From the NCBI RefSeq assembly GCF_009827405.1, contig NZ_WTYY01000002.1, forward strand, positions 310,001 to 374,000: a stretch of 64,000 nt of DNA, read 5' to 3'. Shown piece after piece: positions 5,641 to 26,290 of this stretch. Each line of letters opens with the position of its first letter. Position 1 is the stretch's first letter. The notes under the pieces are model-generated. The model was not told the DNA's origin. It did no database searches and saw only the letters and a program-made list of their open reading frames with translations. Source of the DNA: Alteraurantiacibacter aestuarii. GTDB taxonomy: Bacteria > Pseudomonadota > Alphaproteobacteria > Sphingomonadales > Sphingomonadaceae. The position numbers were made by a program, and so were the translations under genes.

Positions 5641-6090
5641 CTATTGCGCCCAGCGCGCCAGATCGTCGTGGTCCTGCTCGCGCGGTTCGATCCAGTGCCA
5701 GCCATCGGCGCGCTTTTCACGCTTCCAGAACCAGCTGTCCGATTTCAGATGATCCATCGCGAAATCGACCGCTTCGATGGCTTCGCGGCGATGCTTCGCG
5801 GCGGCAGAAACCAGCACGATCGGCTCCCCCACGTGCATCACGCCGGAGCGATGGACGATCAGCATGCCCATCAGGTCAAACCGCTCAATCGCGGAATCGG
5901 CCAGTTTCTCCATGCCCGGCAGGGTCAGCCTTTCGTAGTGCAGCAGTTCCAGCGCTTCCACGCCGCTGTCACCGCGCACTTCGCCCACAAAGGTGCACAC
6001 GCCGCCAAGGCCGGGATGGGCATTGGTGAACGGCCCCACGAATTGTCCGGGATTGAACGGCTGGGTCAGCAGCCTGACATCACGCGCCAT
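5641..6090 (-). CDS. moaE: Molybdopterin synthase catalytic subunit MoaE
   Basis: A 149-residue MoaE. It forms molybdopterin from cyclic pyranopterin monophosphate using the thiocarboxylate on MoaD. Visible motifs are GGVCTFVGEVRG, HYERLTLPGMEKLAD, the RSG and GE region (HRSGVMHVGEPIVLV), and the lysine stretch HLKSDSWFWKRE that holds the active-site Lys. It is the last gene of moaA-moaD-moaE on the minus strand, two bases from moaD. Confidence 0.96.
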   Translation of the reverse strand: MARDVRLLTQPFNPGQFVGPFTNAHPGLGGVCTFVGEVRGDSGVEALELLHYERLTLPGMEKLADSAIERFDLMGMLIVHRSGVMHVGEPIVLVSAAAKHRREAIEAVDFAMDHLKSDSWFWKREKRADGWHWIEPREQDHDDLARWAQ

Positions 6091-6092
6091 GG

Positions 6093-6335
6093 TCAGCCGC
6101 CGCTGACAGGGGGCAGCAAGGCGACCTCGTCCCCGTCCACAGCGGACAGGGAGGTCTTGTCGGCCAGCACCTGCCCATTCACCGCGATGCGGGTGCGATC
6201 CTGCTTCACGGCATCGGCCAGCGGCCCCTGCAATTCATCGCACAGGCCCTGCCAGTCGAGCGGTCCCTCGAGCTGCTTGTCACTGACACCGGCCAGATCG
6301 GCCAGCTTGCCCAGGAAAACGAGTGTCACAGCCAT
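6093..6335 (-). CDS. moaD: Molybdopterin synthase sulfur carrier MoaD
   Basis: An 80-residue ubiquitin-like protein ending in PPVSGG. The C-terminal Gly-Gly is adenylated and then thiocarboxylated to supply sulfur to MoaE. VNGQVLADKTSLSAVDGDEV fits the beta-grasp fold. It sits between moaA (16 bases upstream) and moaE, as usual. Confidence 0.95.
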   Translation of the reverse strand: MAVTLVFLGKLADLAGVSDKQLEGPLDWQGLCDELQGPLADAVKQDRTRIAVNGQVLADKTSLSAVDGDEVALLPPVSGG

Positions 6336-6351
6336 CGCGGCCCCCTCAACA

Positions 6352-7356
6352 TCAGCCGCCGGTCATCGACATGTGGCGCGGCTGCGCAGGGCCAGATCCG
6401 GCCTCTATGCGGAAGTGGTGCTTCTCCGGCTTGATCCGCATTGCCTCATCCAGCGCCAGAGCAAGCTGCTCATCGGGCGAATCGGAACGCAGGGCCGCGC
6501 GCAGATCAACCTTCTCCGCGCCGCCAAGGCAGGCAAACAACTCGCCCGTGGCGGTCACGCGGATACGGTTGCAGGTGGCGCAGAAATTATTGGTCAGCGG
6601 AGTGATGAAGCCCAGCCGCCCGCCGCCGGTTTCACGAATGCGGACATAGCGCGCCGGGCCGCCGGTATCGTCCTTCACGTCTTCCAGCGTCCACATCGCC
6701 TCCAGCCGGTCCCGAATGACCGGCAGCGGCAGGTAGTGATCCACACGCTCGCCATCGACCTCGCCCAGCGGCATGACTTCGATCAGCGTCATGTCATGAC
6801 CGTTGGCATGCGCCCATTCGACCAGGAAGGGGATCTCCTCCTCGTTGATGCCCTTGAGTGCCACCGTGTTGATCTTGACCTTCAGGCCCGCTTCCCTGGC
6901 GGCGGCGATGCCTTGCAGCACCTTCACCAGCCGGTCGCGGCGGGAAAGCTGCTCGAACAGCACCGAATCCATCGTATCGAGGCTGACATTGATGCGTTTG
7001 ACGCCCGCTGCGGCAATATCGTCGGCAAATTCTGCCAGCCGCGTGCCATTGGTGGTGAGCGTGAGTTCTTCCAGACCATCGCCCAGCTTGCGGCCCAGCG
7101 CCTGAATCAGCTGGATCACATCGCGGCGGACCAGCGGCTCCCCGCCGGTCAGGCGGATCTTGGTGATGCCGCGATCAATGAAGGCGAGGCCGAGCTTGTG
7201 CAGCTCCTCCAGGCTGAGAACATCCTTCTTGGGCAGGAAGGTCATCATCTCTGGCATGCAATAGGTGCAGCGCAGATCGCAGCGATCCGTCACCGACAGG
7301 CGCAGATAGGAAATCCGGCGGTTGAAGCCATCGACCAGGGGGGTGGAACAACTCAT
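6352..7356 (-). CDS. moaA: GTP 3',8-cyclase MoaA
   Basis: A 334-residue radical SAM enzyme that starts molybdenum cofactor synthesis by converting GTP to 3',8-cyclo-7,8-dihydro-GTP. The first cluster motif is CDLRCTYC (CxxxCxxC) near residue 26. The second cluster lies in the C-terminal FCATCNRIRVTATGELFACL. The protein ends with the functional Gly-Gly (MSMTGG). TGGEPLVRRD is the SAM-binding region. It heads the moaA-D-E run. The upstream gene ends 11 bases before it, so co-transcription with the folB pair is likely. Confidence 0.97.
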   Translation of the reverse strand: MSCSTPLVDGFNRRISYLRLSVTDRCDLRCTYCMPEMMTFLPKKDVLSLEELHKLGLAFIDRGITKIRLTGGEPLVRRDVIQLIQALGRKLGDGLEELTLTTNGTRLAEFADDIAAAGVKRINVSLDTMDSVLFEQLSRRDRLVKVLQGIAAAREAGLKVKINTVALKGINEEEIPFLVEWAHANGHDMTLIEVMPLGEVDGERVDHYLPLPVIRDRLEAMWTLEDVKDDTGGPARYVRIRETGGGRLGFITPLTNNFCATCNRIRVTATGELFACLGGAEKVDLRAALRSDSPDEQLALALDEAMRIKPEKHHFRIEAGSGPAQPRHMSMTGG

Positions 7357-19768: not shown

Positions 19769-20652
19769 ATACCCAATCGGACACTGGCTCCCCCCCGGCG
19801 GAGAAGACCGATGAACCCGGCCGCATCAACTGGCTGGCGGAGATCCGTGGCCTGTTGCTGATGCTGCTGGGCGTACTGGCCTTCCACACCTTCATCGCCA
19901 AGCCGTTCTACATCCCGTCCTCCAGCATGATGCCCAACCTGCTGGTGGGTGACCGGCTGATCGTGTCCAAATATCCCTATGGCTGGAGTTGGGTGTCCGC
20001 CAGCTTCCACATCTTCCCGCGCGATGACTGGCGCATTGCCCCGTCCACACCCGAATATGGCGATATCGTGATCGTGGTGCCGCCGGGCAGTTCGGAGGAT
20101 TACATCAAGCGGGTGATCGGCCTGCCGGGTGACACCATCGCCATGGTCGACGGGCAAATCATCCTCAACGGCGAGCCGGTGCCGCAGGACATGGAGCCGC
20201 CTGTCCGCCTGCCCGCCGAGCACCAGAATATGTGCGACGGCATACCCTGCATGCGCGATTTCGAGGAATATCGCGTGCGGCTGGAGGATGGCAGCGTAGT
20301 GTTCGAGCCGCCGACTTACCGCGAAACATTGCCCAATGGCGCAACCTACCTCATCATCGATCACCGCGAAGGCATCTACGACAATTTCGAGGAGCTGGTG
20401 GTGCCCGATGGCCATGTGTTCCTGATGGGTGACAACCGCGACCATTCGGCTGACAGCCGCGTCTATGTGGGCGGCGGGCTGGCGGGCCCGGTTCCCATCG
20501 CCGATGTGGGCGGACGGGCGGAGTTCATCAGCTTCAGCCTGGACGGGCGGGCGAGCCTTAATCCCTTGACATGGTTCACCTCTCTCAGGCCTGATCGCGC
20601 ATGGTCCAGCCTGCGACCTGCGCTGGACGTGGGAGAAGCGAGTCATGAGTAG
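19765..20652 (+). CDS. lepB: Signal peptidase I
   Basis: A 295-residue type I signal peptidase. One membrane helix (about 27-47) is followed by the catalytic serine in [11 protein letters not shown] and the catalytic lysine in [11 protein letters not shown], then [11 protein letters not shown], the box E motif. It cleaves exported preproteins at the inner membrane. GTG at 19765 overlaps the acpS stop and has GGAGG ten bases upstream. The end overlaps the next gene by eight bases. Confidence 0.96.
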
Positions 20653-21757
20653 CGATCCACAGGGCGCAGAGCCGAATATCGGCGCCAGCCCGACGCGCAT
20701 CAGCAACCCCGAACTGCGCCATGAAGCCAGCCGCGCTGCGGTGTGGATCGGCATGGTCGGCCTGGCTGTGTTGACCGTTTACATATCGCAAAGCCTGCTG
20801 GTGATTTTCGGCGCGATGGTGTTCGCCGCGATGATCGACGGCGGCGTCCGCCTGCTGGGACGGGGCCTCAAGATCGGGCGCAGCTGGCGCATCGCCATCG
20901 TGCTGGTGTCCAGCGTCGCCTTCCTGATCTGGCTCGGCTGGTTTGCCGGATCGCAGATTTCGCAGGAGGCCGCGCAGTTTCCGGCCATTGTCGAAACGCA
21001 GATGATCCAGCTGTTCGAATGGCTGGACACGCAGGGTTTCGCCATCGACATTTCAGACGTGCAGGGCCTGATCGGTCAGGCCATCAGCGGTTTTGGCACC
21101 GTCACCCGCGCACTGGGCGGCATATTGGGCGGCCTCACCACGCTGGTGGTGGTGGCCATCATCGGCATTTACGTGGTGATCGAGCCGCGGCTGTATGAAC
21201 GCGGCGTGGCATGGATGATGCCGGCTGAGAAGCGCCATGAATTCTACATCACCGTCAGCATCATGGCCTATACCATGCGGCGGCTGATGTTCGGCCGCCT
21301 TGTCGGCATGGTGGTGGAAGGTATCTTCACCTGGGCGATGCTGGCGCTCTATGGCGTGCCGATGGCCGCGCTGCTGGGCATACTGACCGGCCTGCTGGCC
21401 TTCATTCCCAATATCGGCGCGGTAATTTCCGGCGTGCTGATGGTGCTGGTGGGCTTTTCCGGCGGCACGGAGATGGGGCTTTATACGATCTTCGTCTATT
21501 TCCTGATCCAGAATATCGATGGCTATGTGATCATCCCGATGATCGCCAAGAAGACTGTGGACCTGGCGCCTGCTCTGGTACTGGCGGCGCAGCTGATCAT
21601 GGGCATATTGTTCGGCATATTGGGCCTGTTCCTGGCCGATCCGCTGCTGGCGATGATCAAGGTGGCGCTGGAACGCCGGGCGCAGCAGAACGAGGATGGC
21701 GATCAGGCGGTGATCCGCGCAAAGGAAGAAGCCGTGGCGGCGCTGGGCGATGCGTAG
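20645..21757 (+). CDS. AI-2E family transporter (PerM-like permease)
   Basis: A 370-residue membrane protein of the AI-2E/PerM family with seven or eight predicted helices. Typical stretches are LLVIFGAMVFAAMIDGGVRLL near the N-terminus, AALLGILTGLLAFIPNIGAV and IQNIDGYVIIPMIAKKTVDL. Members export small signals or sodium and other ions; the substrate cannot be told here. The ATG overlaps lepB by eight bases, and the stop overlaps the DUF3089 gene. Confidence 0.9.
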   Translation: MSSDPQGAEPNIGASPTRISNPELRHEASRAAVWIGMVGLAVLTVYISQSLLVIFGAMVFAAMIDGGVRLLGRGLKIGRSWRIAIVLVSSVAFLIWLGWFAGSQISQEAAQFPAIVETQMIQLFEWLDTQGFAIDISDVQGLIGQAISGFGTVTRALGGILGGLTTLVVVAIIGIYVVIEPRLYERGVAWMMPAEKRHEFYITVSIMAYTMRRLMFGRLVGMVVEGIFTWAMLALYGVPMAALLGILTGLLAFIPNIGAVISGVLMVLVGFSGGTEMGLYTIFVYFLIQNIDGYVIIPMIAKKTVDLAPALVLAAQLIMGILFGILGLFLADPLLAMIKVALERRAQQNEDGDQAVIRAKEEAVAALGDA

Positions 21758-22889: not shown

Positions 22890-23353
22890 TTACCGAAAGC
22901 GCAGCGGAGTTTCGCGATGCACTGCCAGAAGGCGGCGCGCTGCTGGGGCTGGATCTTGGCACCAAGACCATAGGCACCGCCTTTTGCGACGCGCAGTGGA
23001 GCTTCGCCACGGCGGGCAAGACGCTGGCCAAGGGCAAGTTCACCAAGGACAAGGCCGCGCTGGAAGTGCTGATTGGCCAGCGCAATGTGAAAGGCATCGT
23101 CATCGGCCTGCCGCTCAACATGGATGGCAGCGCGGGGCCGCGTGCGCAGGCCAGCCGCGCCTTTGCCCGCAACCTGGCGGTGCTGGAGCTGCCGGTGCTG
23201 CTGTGGGACGAGCGCTGGTCCACCACCAGCGCCGAACGGGCGATGATCTCGCAGGATTTCAGCCGCGCCAAACGCGCCGAGAAGATCGACAGCCACGCCG
23301 CCGCGATCATCCTGCAAGGGGCGATAGACCGGCTGGCCGGGGGTATTCTGTAG
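22886..23353 (+). CDS. ruvX: Putative Holliday junction resolvase RuvX/YqgF
   Basis: About 155 residues of the YqgF/RuvX RNase H-like family, which also acts in 16S rRNA 5' end maturation. LLGLDLGTKTIGTAFCD carries the first Asp, GIVIGLPLNMDGSAGPRAQ and LWDERWSTTSAERAM the other acidic residues, and DSHAAAIILQGAIDRL the last. The start is uncertain. A GTG at 22871 gives 160 residues but has no ribosome site. A CTG at 22886 overlaps the previous stop as CTGA, has GGAG eight bases upstream and gives the usual ITES N-terminus. Confidence 0.9.
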   Translation: MITESAAEFRDALPEGGALLGLDLGTKTIGTAFCDAQWSFATAGKTLAKGKFTKDKAALEVLIGQRNVKGIVIGLPLNMDGSAGPRAQASRAFARNLAVLELPVLLWDERWSTTSAERAMISQDFSRAKRAEKIDSHAAAIILQGAIDRLAGGIL

Positions 23354-23366
23354 GCCGCAGCAGTAT

Positions 23367-24269
23367 CTAGGCCGCAGTAGCCAGGGCGGCGCGGCGATTG
23401 GTCGCCTCGCCCGCAATCAGGCGGCTGCCATTGCCTTCTGCCCTTCGCCACAGCGCGTCGCGCTCCGCCACCGGCAGAATGCCTGCCTGCGCTTCCAGCG
23501 CCGTCAGCCGCATCCGTTCGCTGGGATGGTGGCGGGCAAAGTTCTCCGCCAGATCGCGCGCGTCATCGCCGCCCAGACCAACCGCCACGCGCAGGAATAT
23601 CTCGCTGCCGCCGGGACTGATGACGCCTGCAATCTCATCCTTCTCGACATCGAAGCGATACTGGTCGAGCCAACCCTGCGCGCCGCCCGAGTGCATGATG
23701 TTGAGCGAGACGGAGAGGCTTTGAGGCGGCAATTGCGAATGCACATCACGGTGCGCGCGGTAATGCATCAGCTTGCCCGGATCGAGGGTCGATCGTTCGA
23801 CAAAACGCAGCCCGGCCTTTTCTCCGATCACGCCCTCCACCGCCTCATAATCATATTCGTAATAGTCGGACGCATAGCCCGGCCCGAAATAGCCGAGGGT
23901 GAGGAAATCGAAATTGTGATCGTGCGGCAATTCATAGCTGAAGGCAGAATGGCCCGATGCGCGGAACACGTAGTCCTGCTGCGAGGGCCAGAAATTGGCC
24001 CGCAGGAAGAATTCGCGGCCCAGCGGTGAAAGCATCACCACCTGCGCGCCGTAGGAGCTGGCGTCTTCCTCACCGCCTGCAGAATCCTTGAGTTCGGCCA
24101 GCATGATGTCGGCCAGGAACTGGCGATCATTGCCCAGACGGCGCAGCCAGCGCGCGGCGGACAGCAGCGATTCCTCCTCCTGCGGGTGGAAACCATCGCT
24201 CTTCAACGCCTCTACGCAATCACCCAGCGAGCTGGTTGCATCGTCGCGGTAGTCGATCACTCTTGGCAT
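23367..24269 (-). CDS. Unrecognised cupin-like protein of the peptide cassette (protein C)
   Basis: A 300-residue protein not assigned to a named family. Residues 105-195 look like a cupin or double-stranded beta-helix core: a metal-type motif ELPHDHNFDF (H116, H118, D121) and later LDPGKLMHYRAHRDVH (H169, H173, H177), followed by the strand SLSVSLNIM. Helical segments lie at about 33-65 and at the C-terminus (DLAENFARHHPSERMRLTAL), the latter like a HEAT repeat. Its ATG overlaps the stop of protein B (TAATG). A non-haem metal enzyme acting on the upstream peptide is the best inference. It converges on ruvX. Confidence 0.7.
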   Translation of the reverse strand: MPRVIDYRDDATSSLGDCVEALKSDGFHPQEEESLLSAARWLRRLGNDRQFLADIMLAELKDSAGGEEDASSYGAQVVMLSPLGREFFLRANFWPSQQDYVFRASGHSAFSYELPHDHNFDFLTLGYFGPGYASDYYEYDYEAVEGVIGEKAGLRFVERSTLDPGKLMHYRAHRDVHSQLPPQSLSVSLNIMHSGGAQGWLDQYRFDVEKDEIAGVISPGGSEIFLRVAVGLGGDDARDLAENFARHHPSERMRLTALEAQAGILPVAERDALWRRAEGNGSRLIAGEATNRRAALATAA

Positions 24270-25222
24270 TATTGTGTCTCCAGTTCGCGCAATTGCGGAT
24301 GGGTTTCCAGCAGCTGGGCGCGCAGCGCGCCGGCCGGATCGGACAGGCCATCCTCCATGTCGCGGGCAATTTGGCAAAGCAGGGTGAAGCCCTGCGCGGT
24401 GTCCAGCGCCAGACATTCACGAACCGCCTGCCAGCGCAGGCTTTCGTCATGCTCATCGCGCGCAAGGCGACTTAGGACAGGCGGCGCCTTTGTACATTCC
24501 ATGCGGCCGAGCAGCGTGACCATCATCTCCTTGCGACTGGTGGCCAGACTGCCCGATGACTGGTGCAGCAGGCGGCCGGTCTCCCGGCAATATTCGCGCC
24601 CCGGCTGCGGCGGTGCGCCCACCTGCAACAGGCGCAATGTGACCAGCCTTGTCTCGACCGTTTCGGCAATCAGCATCTCGCTGGAACAGTCGAATGCCAG
24701 GCGCACACCGGCGCGCAGGGTGATGGGTTCCTCACTGAAGCTCACCAGTTCGCGCGGGCCGTGAATGCGCAGGATGCGCGCACTGGCCGATCCGGCCAGC
24801 GTGGCATCATAGCGCAAGGCATCGCTGAAGGTGGCACAGGGATACTCAAACGTGCCCGGTTCGCGGGCCTGAAGGAGCATTTGCGCGCGCCCGGTCTTGC
24901 CCAGCAGAATGGTGGATGCGCGACCATCATACCCATTGCGGAAGGGCGGATGGCCCAGCCAGTTGCCGGACAGAGCGGCGCAGAAATGGCTCACAAGCGC
25001 GCTCATCAGCTGCTCAGCCGCGCCCTGGCCGGTGAAGATGTCTTCGAGAAGCGGGCAATCCTCCAGCGCCGCGCCTGTGCCGAAATTTTCGAATTCGGCC
25101 AGTGCCTGGGCCACGCCTTTTTCGGCGCGCCAGTCATCACAGGCCACTTTCATCGCGGCCTGGGCCTGACGCTGCGGGGCTCTGTTGCCCCGCAGCGCCG
25201 CGATGCTGGGATCAATACGCAT
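24269..25222 (-). CDS. Unrecognised HEAT-like protein of the peptide cassette (protein B)
   Basis: A 317-residue protein with no named family recognised. The middle (about 100-210) is rich in beta strands and ends in ITLRAGVRLAFDCSSE and VTLRLLQVG, a cupin-like pattern but without clear His ligands. The last 90 residues resemble HEAT repeats (APPVLSRLARDEHDESLRWQ, then LLCQIARDMEDGLSDPAGA). The order, beta core then helical repeats, mirrors protein C and suggests an ancient pair with B as a scaffold or peptide-binding partner. It starts 18 bases after the 53-codon peptide gene and is coupled to C. Confidence 0.7.
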   Translation of the reverse strand: MRIDPSIAALRGNRAPQRQAQAAMKVACDDWRAEKGVAQALAEFENFGTGAALEDCPLLEDIFTGQGAAEQLMSALVSHFCAALSGNWLGHPPFRNGYDGRASTILLGKTGRAQMLLQAREPGTFEYPCATFSDALRYDATLAGSASARILRIHGPRELVSFSEEPITLRAGVRLAFDCSSEMLIAETVETRLVTLRLLQVGAPPQPGREYCRETGRLLHQSSGSLATSRKEMMVTLLGRMECTKAPPVLSRLARDEHDESLRWQAVRECLALDTAQGFTLLCQIARDMEDGLSDPAGALRAQLLETHPQLRELETQ

Positions 25223-25240
25223 CGCTGCGACCCTGGCGCC

Positions 25241-25402
25241 TCAGAACAGACCGCCGCCGGGAGGCGACGATTCGTAAACGATGGTGGCGATGACAACGAT
25301 CGTATCGTCATGGCCGGGGTTGGGAGTGCGCATGGAACCGAACATTCCGGTGATGGTGTTGAGATCAGGCAGGCTCGCCAGATCGATCTTGGGCAGTTTC
25401 AT
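25241..25402 (-). CDS. 53-aa peptide, candidate precursor of a modified peptide
   Basis: A 53-residue open frame with a strong ribosome site (ACGGAGA, eight bases before ATG). It begins MKLPKIDLASLPDLNTITGM, which looks like an amphipathic leader, continues through FGSMRTPNPGHDD, a beta-branched hydrophobic stretch TIVVIATIVY, and ends ESSPPGGGLF. There is no Cys, and there are several Thr, Ser, Asp and Tyr that could be modified. It is followed by B and C on the same strand with only 18 bases between. A RiPP-like precursor fits size and context, but no known class matched; a small regulatory or structural peptide is the alternative. Confidence 0.7.
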   Translation of the reverse strand: MKLPKIDLASLPDLNTITGMFGSMRTPNPGHDDTIVVIATIVYESSPPGGGLF

Positions 25403-25410
25403 ATTTTTTT

Positions 25411-25428
25411 CTCCGTCTGCCGGCGGAG
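25411..25428 (-). promoter_or_regulatory. Hairpin covering the peptide-gene ribosome site
   Basis: On the minus strand CTCCG and CGGAG pair across an eight-base loop. The second arm is part of the ribosome site ACGGAGA of the 53-codon gene, so the hairpin would limit translation. A weak promoter-like pair (TTGTCC, 16 bp, TAGGCA) lies about 45-70 bases upstream of the start codon. Confidence 0.4.
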
Positions 25429-25504
25429 CCCCGCGCCCCGCCTGCCTATGGAGTGGCGGGAAGCGGACAAGGAGTTAAATTAAATGATTGTAATAGATTG
25501 AAAA

Positions 25505-26290
25505 TCAATGACTTGCGCGAGTGATAATCAGGACCAGGCCGTCCGATTCATGACCGTGGTATGGCAAAGCAAAGCGCAAGGCGTCGGCGCGCGCGCGATC
25601 GAGAATCTGCGGTGGGATATGCGGATCATGCAGAATCACGTCGGCACTGCCGAGCAGGCGGGCCTGCCGCAGGGTCAGCTCCTCCGGGTCATCGCTGGCA
25701 ATGGTGATTTCGATGCGGCCTGCCTCGCCGGCATTCGCCGCCCCGTGCAGCCAGTCCTCGATACGGCCTGCCGCCCCTGCCCGCAGCGGATCGAGCGGGC
25801 CACCTGCGGTCAGCGCATTGTCGAGCGCCTGGCGCCTGTCACCCATGCGCGGCCAGCGCTGTTTGATCCGGTCGCGCAGGGAATTGAGCGCGCTGGCCAG
25901 ATCGCCCAGATCGGACGGCAGCAGCCCTTCCAGCCGCAGCCGCAATTGCTTGGCAAGTCCCGCCGATGCGCCCGATGTGCCGATGGCCACGATCACCGGA
26001 TCGCGTTCCAGCAGGCTGGGCGTGGTGAAATCGCACAGGTCCGGTCGGTCCACCACATTGACCAGTAACCCGGCGCAGCGCGCGCGAATGGCATCGCCCT
26101 CGCACGCGGACTGACTTTCATGCGCGATGAAGGCCAGCCGGGCGCCTTTGTCGATGCCTTCCTGCAGATCGCCGATCACCAGCCCCCCGGCCCGTTCGAC
26201 AAGCCGCTGCTTGGGTTCGGCCATCGGCCCGTCTCCCAATACGATAACCGGCTGTCCGGTCAGGCGGTGGAAGAGCGGGAGCGATCGCAT
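25505..26290 (-). CDS. CysG-like siroheme synthase with truncated SUMT domain
   Basis: A 261-residue protein. Residues 1 to about 150 match precorrin-2 dehydrogenase/sirohydrochlorin ferrochelatase: VIVLGDGPMAEPKQRLVERA, then VNVVDRPDLCDFTTPSLLER and AIGTSGASAGLAKQLRLRLE. After a linker, about 60 residues match only the start of the SUMT methyltransferase domain (EELTLRQARLLGSADVILHD). The remaining ~180 residues of SUMT are missing and the following DNA does not encode them. It can probably still oxidise and chelate precorrin-2, so methylation must come from another enzyme. It follows lysA's cluster on the same strand and is upstream of the peptide cassette. Confidence 0.85.
   Translation of the reverse strand: MRSLPLFHRLTGQPVIVLGDGPMAEPKQRLVERAGGLVIGDLQEGIDKGARLAFIAHESQSACEGDAIRARCAGLLVNVVDRPDLCDFTTPSLLERDPVIVAIGTSGASAGLAKQLRLRLEGLLPSDLGDLASALNSLRDRIKQRWPRMGDRRQALDNALTAGGPLDPLRAGAAGRIEDWLHGAANAGEAGRIEITIASDDPEELTLRQARLLGSADVILHDPHIPPQILDRARADALRFALPYHGHESDGLVLIITRASH

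Follow-up and report, generated by a model that had tools for sequence, protein, structure and literature searches.

Organization of the locus

The window analyzed here is a 64,000-nucleotide stretch of DNA from Alteraurantiacibacter aestuarii (contig NZ_WTYY01000002.1, positions 310,001 to 374,000). At window positions 23367-25402, it carries three genes on the minus strand, designated A, B and C, which were read directly from the sequence and translated. A encodes a small peptide, and B and C encode larger proteins with predicted cupin folds. The arrangement has the anatomy of a cassette for a ribosomally synthesized and post-translationally modified peptide (RiPP) and would be a candidate new RiPP class. 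We consider it fairly probable that A is a precursor and that B and C mature it, the three genes together forming a compact RiPP-type cassette. The features of the locus are listed below.

25241..25402, minus strand: gene A, encoding a 53-amino-acid peptide, putative precursor (translation; 76 distinct relatives; ratio of nonsynonymous to synonymous substitution rates, dN/dS, of 0.06-0.29 in 19 pairs)
25411..25414, minus strand: Shine-Dalgarno-like GGAG, 8 bases 5' of the ATG of A (direct reading)
25331..25402, minus strand: residues 1-24 of A, N-terminal conserved block (MKLPKIDLASLPDLNTITGMFGSM in the window), putative leader (delimited by column entropy)
25310..25330, minus strand: residues 25-31 of A, variable linker (mean entropy 2.88 bits)
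25271..25309, minus strand: residues 32-44 of A, C-terminal conserved block DDTIVVIATIVYE, putative core (mean entropy 1.23 bits; D33, Y43 and an acidic residue at 44)
25244..25270, minus strand: residues 45-53 of A, tail SSPPGGGLF, of variable length (mean entropy 2.38 bits)
24269..25222, minus strand: gene B, encoding a 317-amino-acid predicted cupin and helical-repeat protein without a conserved histidine set, paralogue of C (model, Foldseek, hhalign and alignments)
23367..24269, minus strand: gene C, encoding a 300-amino-acid predicted three-histidine cupin and helical-repeat protein, putative maturase (model and Foldseek)
23739..23924, minus strand: predicted metal site of C, comprising H116 (23922-23924), H118 (23916-23918) and H177 (23739-23741) (invariance)

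The stop codon of A is separated from the start of B by 18 bases, and one base is common to the TAA stop of B and the ATG start of C (TAATG). The translation of A, MKLPKIDLASLPDLNTITGMFGSMRTPNPGHDDTIVVIATIVYESSPPGGGLF, contains no cysteine. An earlier reading of this DNA (the original prediction) had described a 53-codon gene with a ribosome site and a cysteine-free product, followed at 18 bases by B, with the TAATG overlap between B and C; direct reading and translation bore out all of these points.

Conservation of A and its association with B and C

Matches to A were obtained by tblastn in 84 of 95 loci, yielding 76 distinct peptides; these loci come from two C-search sets that overlap in species, and the counts of the two sets are therefore not summed. 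The 11 loci without a match comprised three cut by contig ends (L076, L091 and L093), one decayed cassette (L094) and seven with a small open reading frame (ORF) of similar build, as judged by eye. The dN/dS ratios were low for A (0.06-0.29, 19 pairs), B (0.08-0.30, 19 pairs) and C (0.06-0.19, 20 pairs), the 20 pairs being hand-chosen among near relatives and not independent, with A computable in 19. Given these low ratios and the retention of the A-B-C order in many genomes, A is a real gene; selection and synteny rule out a chance ORF. A small ORF lying directly before an operon, 18 bases away in the window, might also be a regulatory upstream ORF, attenuating the translation of B and C, but conservation at the amino-acid level with synonymous change in A, together with the tandem copies in a Ferrimonas locus (L092) bearing their own ribosome-site-like sequences, makes this explanation extremely improbable.

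A search for C in 246 genomes of the order gave matches in 77, of which 76 were kept, G156 (E 6.5e-4) being dropped because its match was not confirmed by the C profile. Upstream DNA was available for 74 of these 76 genomes, the other two (G097 and G215) stopping at a contig edge. B preceded C on the same strand in 74/74, with its start 878-1110 bases before that of C in 73; the distance of 284 read for G187 is due to a partial C match. A match to the A profile was present before B in 60/74 genomes, ending 2-110 bases before B in 59, with an estimated overlap of 86 bases with B in G136. An A-like small ORF was found in the remaining 14, in 10 by an automatic ribosome-site rule and in four (L117, L127, L129 and L167) by inspection. 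In the reciprocal test, on 119 genomes of the family, A was detected in 39 (E 0.01), C in 43 and both in 38; the A matches in four of these 39 genomes have E-values in the range 0.002-0.01, and the sameness of the A and C draws rests on equal tallies and on equal handles where listed. In all 38 co-occurrences, the coordinates put A and C on the same strand at a distance of about 0.9-1.2 kb, and the presence of C close by in 38 of the 39 A-bearing genomes rules out A as an orphan peptide. The five genomes with C but no A match (G123, G135, G140, G1404 and G1437) each had an A-like small ORF before B. Other genomes thus also have the peptide ahead of B and C, as anticipated in the original prediction (A profile in 60/74, A-like ORF in 14/74; reciprocally, 38/39 and 38/43), and a small gene regularly lies upstream of these two. 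By gene order and dN/dS, the locus consists, as RiPP cassettes do, of a gene-encoded peptide coupled to processing-type genes.

Elsewhere, C was detected in 5/385 genomes of the class and 15/398 of the phylum, both samples including relatives of the window, in 2/369 of a gammaproteobacterial class sample and in 2/60 of one alphaproteobacterial family; scoring in the class, phylum and gammaproteobacterial searches was confined to the first few candidates of each genome. On these counts, sphingomonads commonly carry the cassette, and it is rare in the remaining samples.

Two side observations concern individual assemblies. The matches to B or C are split over frames or pieces in the drafts L043 (B), L090 (C), L159 (C) and L175 (C), through decay or sequencing error. 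In G1138 (L146 5200-5802), there is a divergent small ORF, and the end of the upstream gene resembles a JmjC-type cupin by eye.

Within the 76 peptides, mean column entropy was 1.23 bits for residues 2-24, the same value as for residues 32-44, with the more variable linker between these two conserved blocks. P12 and G22 were invariant, D33 was present in 74/76, Y43 in 72/76 and E or D at position 44 in 74/76; any cysteine occurred in only 5/76. A conserved leader and a variable core had been expected. The N-terminal block is indeed conserved and the C-terminal block differs between lineages, but among peptides of the Erythrobacteraceae type this latter block is itself conserved. Endings of the double-glycine type, which would mark the end of a leader, occur in some lineages only.

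Predicted folds of B and C

The AlphaFold model of C had a mean predicted local distance difference test score (pLDDT) of 91.1, and its best Foldseek matches were 8vni (mercaptosuccinate dioxygenase, E 3.7e-8), 4tlf (5.6e-8) and 6xb9. That of B had a mean pLDDT of 95.6, with 8vni again the best match (E 7.1e-7) among cupins. Query-length template modeling scores were modest (0.44 and 0.40 for the C and B models). A cupin double-stranded beta-helix is therefore predicted for both proteins by models and Foldseek, with extra helices before and after the barrel in each. The C-terminal helices of both resemble HEAT repeats, although the HEAT_2 model exceeded its cut-off only in the Alteromonas B (36.7 vs 27.7 bits) and remained below it in the other B and C matches. 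Searches of the PDB with the C sequence and with the C and B profiles gave weak matches only, mostly to designed helical proteins.

H116, H118 and H177 of C were invariant in two alignments (39/39 and 25/25 sequences), forming a residue arrangement like the three-histidine site of the cysteine dioxygenase (CDO) family. Across lineages, 23 columns of C were invariant, including R90, E138, E150, R171, D175, Q179, N190, Q203 and Y204 in 25/25 diverse sequences. The original prediction of a cupin-like metal protein agrees with the model, and its HxH pair and H177 were retained, but D121, H169 and H173, which it also placed in the metal motifs, vary among relatives (position 121 is D in the window and S, H, A or N elsewhere). 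C is thus predicted to be a three-histidine cupin with a fold nearest to those of thiol dioxygenases, any bound metal being probably Fe(II).

When B and C were compared as wide profiles, hhalign aligned them over 260 columns (probability 96.6, E 4.8e-10); narrow alignments matched in the helical part only (probability 23, E 9e-4). This 260-column alignment identifies B, at the level of sequence profiles, as a paralogue of C, and a metal-less one, as no conserved histidine set was found in the B alignments. Because C keeps its histidines and B has no conserved set, the two would constitute an active/inactive cupin pair. B and C had been described as unrecognized proteins without a known maturation family. 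Searches of Pfam and NCBIfam up to E 10 indeed gave no RiPP enzyme model (radical SAM, YcaO, LanM/LanB, ATP-grasp, lasso B/C or MNIO) for A, B or C, but B is the paralogue of C rather than an unrelated partner. The three window proteins reached no curated Pfam or NCBIfam cut-off, and the Ferrimonas and Alteromonas B and C reached no NCBIfam cut-off. There was no PHROGs or PADLOC match of A, B or C up to E 0.1, and a phage or defence origin was rejected.

Comparison with thiol dioxygenases and hydroxylases

C shares its predicted fold and its HxH...H histidines with the mercaptosuccinate, 3-mercaptopropionate, cysteine and cysteamine dioxygenases. It also has an invariant arginine 26 residues before the first histidine, the spacing found in cysteine dioxygenase (numbering by eye). 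It differs in its additional helical-repeat C-terminus and in the absence of cysteine from the window precursor. A CDO profile aligned with C with the HxH in register, but the match was negligible (hhalign probability 1.5, E 0.034), placing the likeness at the level of the fold. The Ser-His-Tyr triad, so named for thiol dioxygenases in PMC10966181, is not kept: by eye, C has SVSLNIM where six CDO_I-hit proteins have an LHIY-type stretch, a part that the hhalign alignment did not cover. C as a plain cysteine dioxygenase was rejected on the CDO_I non-match, the negligible profile match and the cysteine-poor peptides.

A reaction in which C, like a normal thiol dioxygenase, oxidizes a thiol either on A or on a small molecule would accord with the nearest folds, which include the cysteamine dioxygenases and plant cysteine oxidases that act on peptides (activity on an N-terminal cysteine is reported), and with the presence of cysteine in the precursors of some lineages. 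We nevertheless regard it as very improbable: the window A has no cysteine and few of its relatives have any, the triad is replaced by S188-N190-M192 in C (by eye), and the Pfam CDO_I model gave no match to C up to E 10 or to G000 at E 0.001. The target of C is probably not a thiol, since the same invariant residues of C accompany both cysteine-free and cysteine-containing precursors.

Hydroxylases of the 2-oxoglutarate/JmjC type, which are used on RiPPs, would be analogous in their O2-dependent chemistry within a cupin-type barrel. 1vrb and NO66 appear in the Foldseek list of C, below the best thiol dioxygenases. C differs from these enzymes in lacking their HxD...H triad, position 121 being variable.

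Precursors and exporter genes in distant relatives

In a Ferrimonas locus (L092), five tandem small ORFs precede B and C. Three encode identical peptides (MKLNNTAELNSQFGVAGASQLQVVGGPICIGIMVVLIK), the fourth differs at the end and the fifth is related; genes of the Yip1, HlyD and MacB types lie behind C. Plasmid pASTE61-200 of Alteromonas stellipolaris (L140) carries two small ORFs unlike each other, followed by B and C, with Yip1, HlyD, ABC ATPase and MacB-type permease genes on one side and an ABC ATPase and an ABC2 permease beyond C. The two small ORFs do not figure in the displayed gene table, which is known to be incomplete, and the B and C copies are annotated as hypothetical proteins. 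Several lineages have a VGG-x-x-C stretch, in which a VGG similar to the end of a double-glycine leader runs into a hydrophobic stretch containing a cysteine; in two genomes from one alphaproteobacterial family, ELSAIGG precedes a different core. The core of the precursor thus differs from lineage to lineage, whereas B and C are retained.

The presence of several peptides per B-C pair is precursor-like rather than subunit-like. This bears on the main rival explanation, in which A is a structural or activating subunit of an A+B+C enzyme acting on another small molecule, its hydrophobic strand completing the barrel of one of the two cupins. Such a subunit would be consistent with the single A per B and C and the nearly fixed core in Erythrobacteraceae-type loci, with purifying selection on A about equal to that on B and C, with the lack of a local exporter in the window and with the retention of the locus mostly at the ruvX site. 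It is at odds with the five tandem Ferrimonas copies and the two unlike Alteromonas peptides, with C-terminal blocks of A that change completely between lineages against a background of 23 invariant columns in C, and with the exporter genes alongside both gammaproteobacterial loci. On balance, we consider a subunit role unlikely.

HlyD, an ABC ATPase, a permease and Yip1 form the set of the leaderless bacteriocin bawcin and are also noted for circular bacteriocins in PMC10707071. The Ferrimonas and Alteromonas cassettes share Yip1, HlyD and MacB-type genes with such clusters; the window cassette has no such set beside it, and the cluster table of bawcin contains nothing like B or C. These exporter-type genes and the short hydrophobic nature of the peptides would suit an unmodified secreted or membrane-active peptide of the leaderless-bacteriocin kind, for which B and C, as non-enzymatic cupins, would be cytoplasmic immunity, sensor or chaperone proteins. 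We judge this quite improbable, because the N-terminal block of A is conserved, in contrast to leaderless peptides, and the three-histidine set of C, together with R90, E138, E150, R171, D175 and N190, all present in 25/25 sequences, suits catalysis better than binding.

The features that the A-B-C system shares with RiPPs are thus the small precursor gene coupled to processing-type proteins, the conserved N-terminal block of A and, in both Ferrimonas and Alteromonas, more than one precursor for each B-C pair together with exporter genes.

As a separate observation, a shorter pair of B/C-like proteins is encoded on a plasmid of Vibrio sp. ED002 (L141 7258-8666), close to genes for recombinase and restriction functions. 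The second protein of this pair has HxH...H, and no A-like ORF was recognized.

Genomic site, loss and additional copies

The direct neighbours of the cassette in the window, as identified by Pfam, are a convergent RuvX gene adjoining C and a CysG-type siroheme gene upstream of A, beyond which lies a PLP (pyridoxal phosphate)-decarboxylase gene (lysA-like). An AI-2E-type transporter gene is located farther out (20645-21757, plus strand), past the RuvX and DUF3089 genes. The absence of an adjacent transporter, stated in the original prediction, holds for these direct neighbours but not for the two distant relatives with exporter genes alongside. A simple scan of 23250-25600 for sigma-70 promoters and terminators found none, other promoter types being outside its reach.

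A convergent ruvX was found within 3 kb after C in 51/65 loci; the other 14 had none in the DNA available, which was short for some. No ruvX was present near C in Parasphingopyxis, Sphingosinicella, Ferrimonas or the Alteromonas plasmid. In the congener G174, the whole cassette is cleanly absent, ruvX and the CysG gene being about 50 bases apart (L185 1854-1906), and a cassette-free gap of about 195 bases separates them in the congener G164 (L186 4840-5035). Aurantiacibacter zhengii has a decayed cassette (L094, about 5900-6360), in which all that remains is the beginning of an A-like frame and the rear part of C. Second, divergent cassettes are present in G074 (L116 5520-7582) and G145 (L118 5138-7216), flanked by what we take to be yidC-like and engB-like genes, and G1389 has two cassettes with unlike precursors (L190 and L191). 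On the tree of C, core type changed label 10 times, against a mean of 30.5 for shuffled labels; six rows (L114, L115, L126, L141, L146 and L173) that were not of the Erythrobacteraceae type or were not judged kept that type as their default label, so this suggests only in a rough way that core type tracks the lineages of C.

Discussion

In the mechanism that we infer, from the substrate role of A through the metal and the chemistry to cleavage and export, the N-terminal block of A would serve as a recognition element binding B and C, joined by a spacer to a short Val/Ile-rich core. C, with its bound metal, would modify this core. B would hold or present the peptide, or would join C in a B-C heteromer that makes up the complete enzyme, and the helical repeats would contribute to leader binding. 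The peptide would then be cleaved and, in the two gammaproteobacteria with a dedicated HlyD/MacB/Yip1 set, exported. At a somewhat less than even chance, the system would be a new RiPP class in which an active three-histidine cupin and its metal-less paralogue, each fused to helical repeats, form a heteromer that modifies Val/Ile-rich ribosomal peptides at positions other than thiols. This class would comprise a conserved sphingomonad branch, perhaps with a signal- or cofactor-like product, and a gammaproteobacterial branch exported in the manner of a bacteriocin. That the reaction is an O2-dependent oxidation, in the aliphatic core of A or at its Tyr-acidic end, is a possibility that we put forward with considerable doubt.

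Several observations weigh against the view that B and C mature A as their precursor. The cassette is known here from its sequence and from predicted models. Among the six flanking window genes scanned, there was no peptidase, no dedicated peptide exporter and no HlyD/ABC/Yip1 set, and the link to exporters comes from two loci (L092 and L140). The core is nearly fixed in the Erythrobacteraceae-type peptides and the cassette is kept mostly at the ruvX site, both unlike a fast-evolving bacteriocin. The precursors of the distant groups have only a loose common pattern, and 14/74 associations depend on the ORF rule or on inspection by eye. This rule is weak: it found a small ORF before 263/690 control ORFs (open frames of at least 250 amino acids, some of which are not genes), with a strongly hydrophobic C-terminal half in 14/690, a level reached by seven of the 14 cassettes assigned by rule or by eye. 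In G1138 (L146), the rule finds no small ORF on the B/C strand, and G1385 alone has A without B or C, as an orphan or remnant A-like ORF beside ruvX (L187 3762-4106, minus strand).

The modified-peptide locus of the original prediction is therefore partly supported: the precursor-like association, the conserved N-terminal block and the predicted metal cupin all point towards it. Open-access literature text searches, on the terms used, retrieved no paper on the A-B-C system. Provided that B and C do process A, the cassette would add a type of maturase, an active/inactive cupin pair, to the chemistry of peptide natural products, and cluster finders built on known maturases would miss such loci. 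This is a three-gene, 2-kb system, mostly kept at one chromosomal site in its bacterial family.

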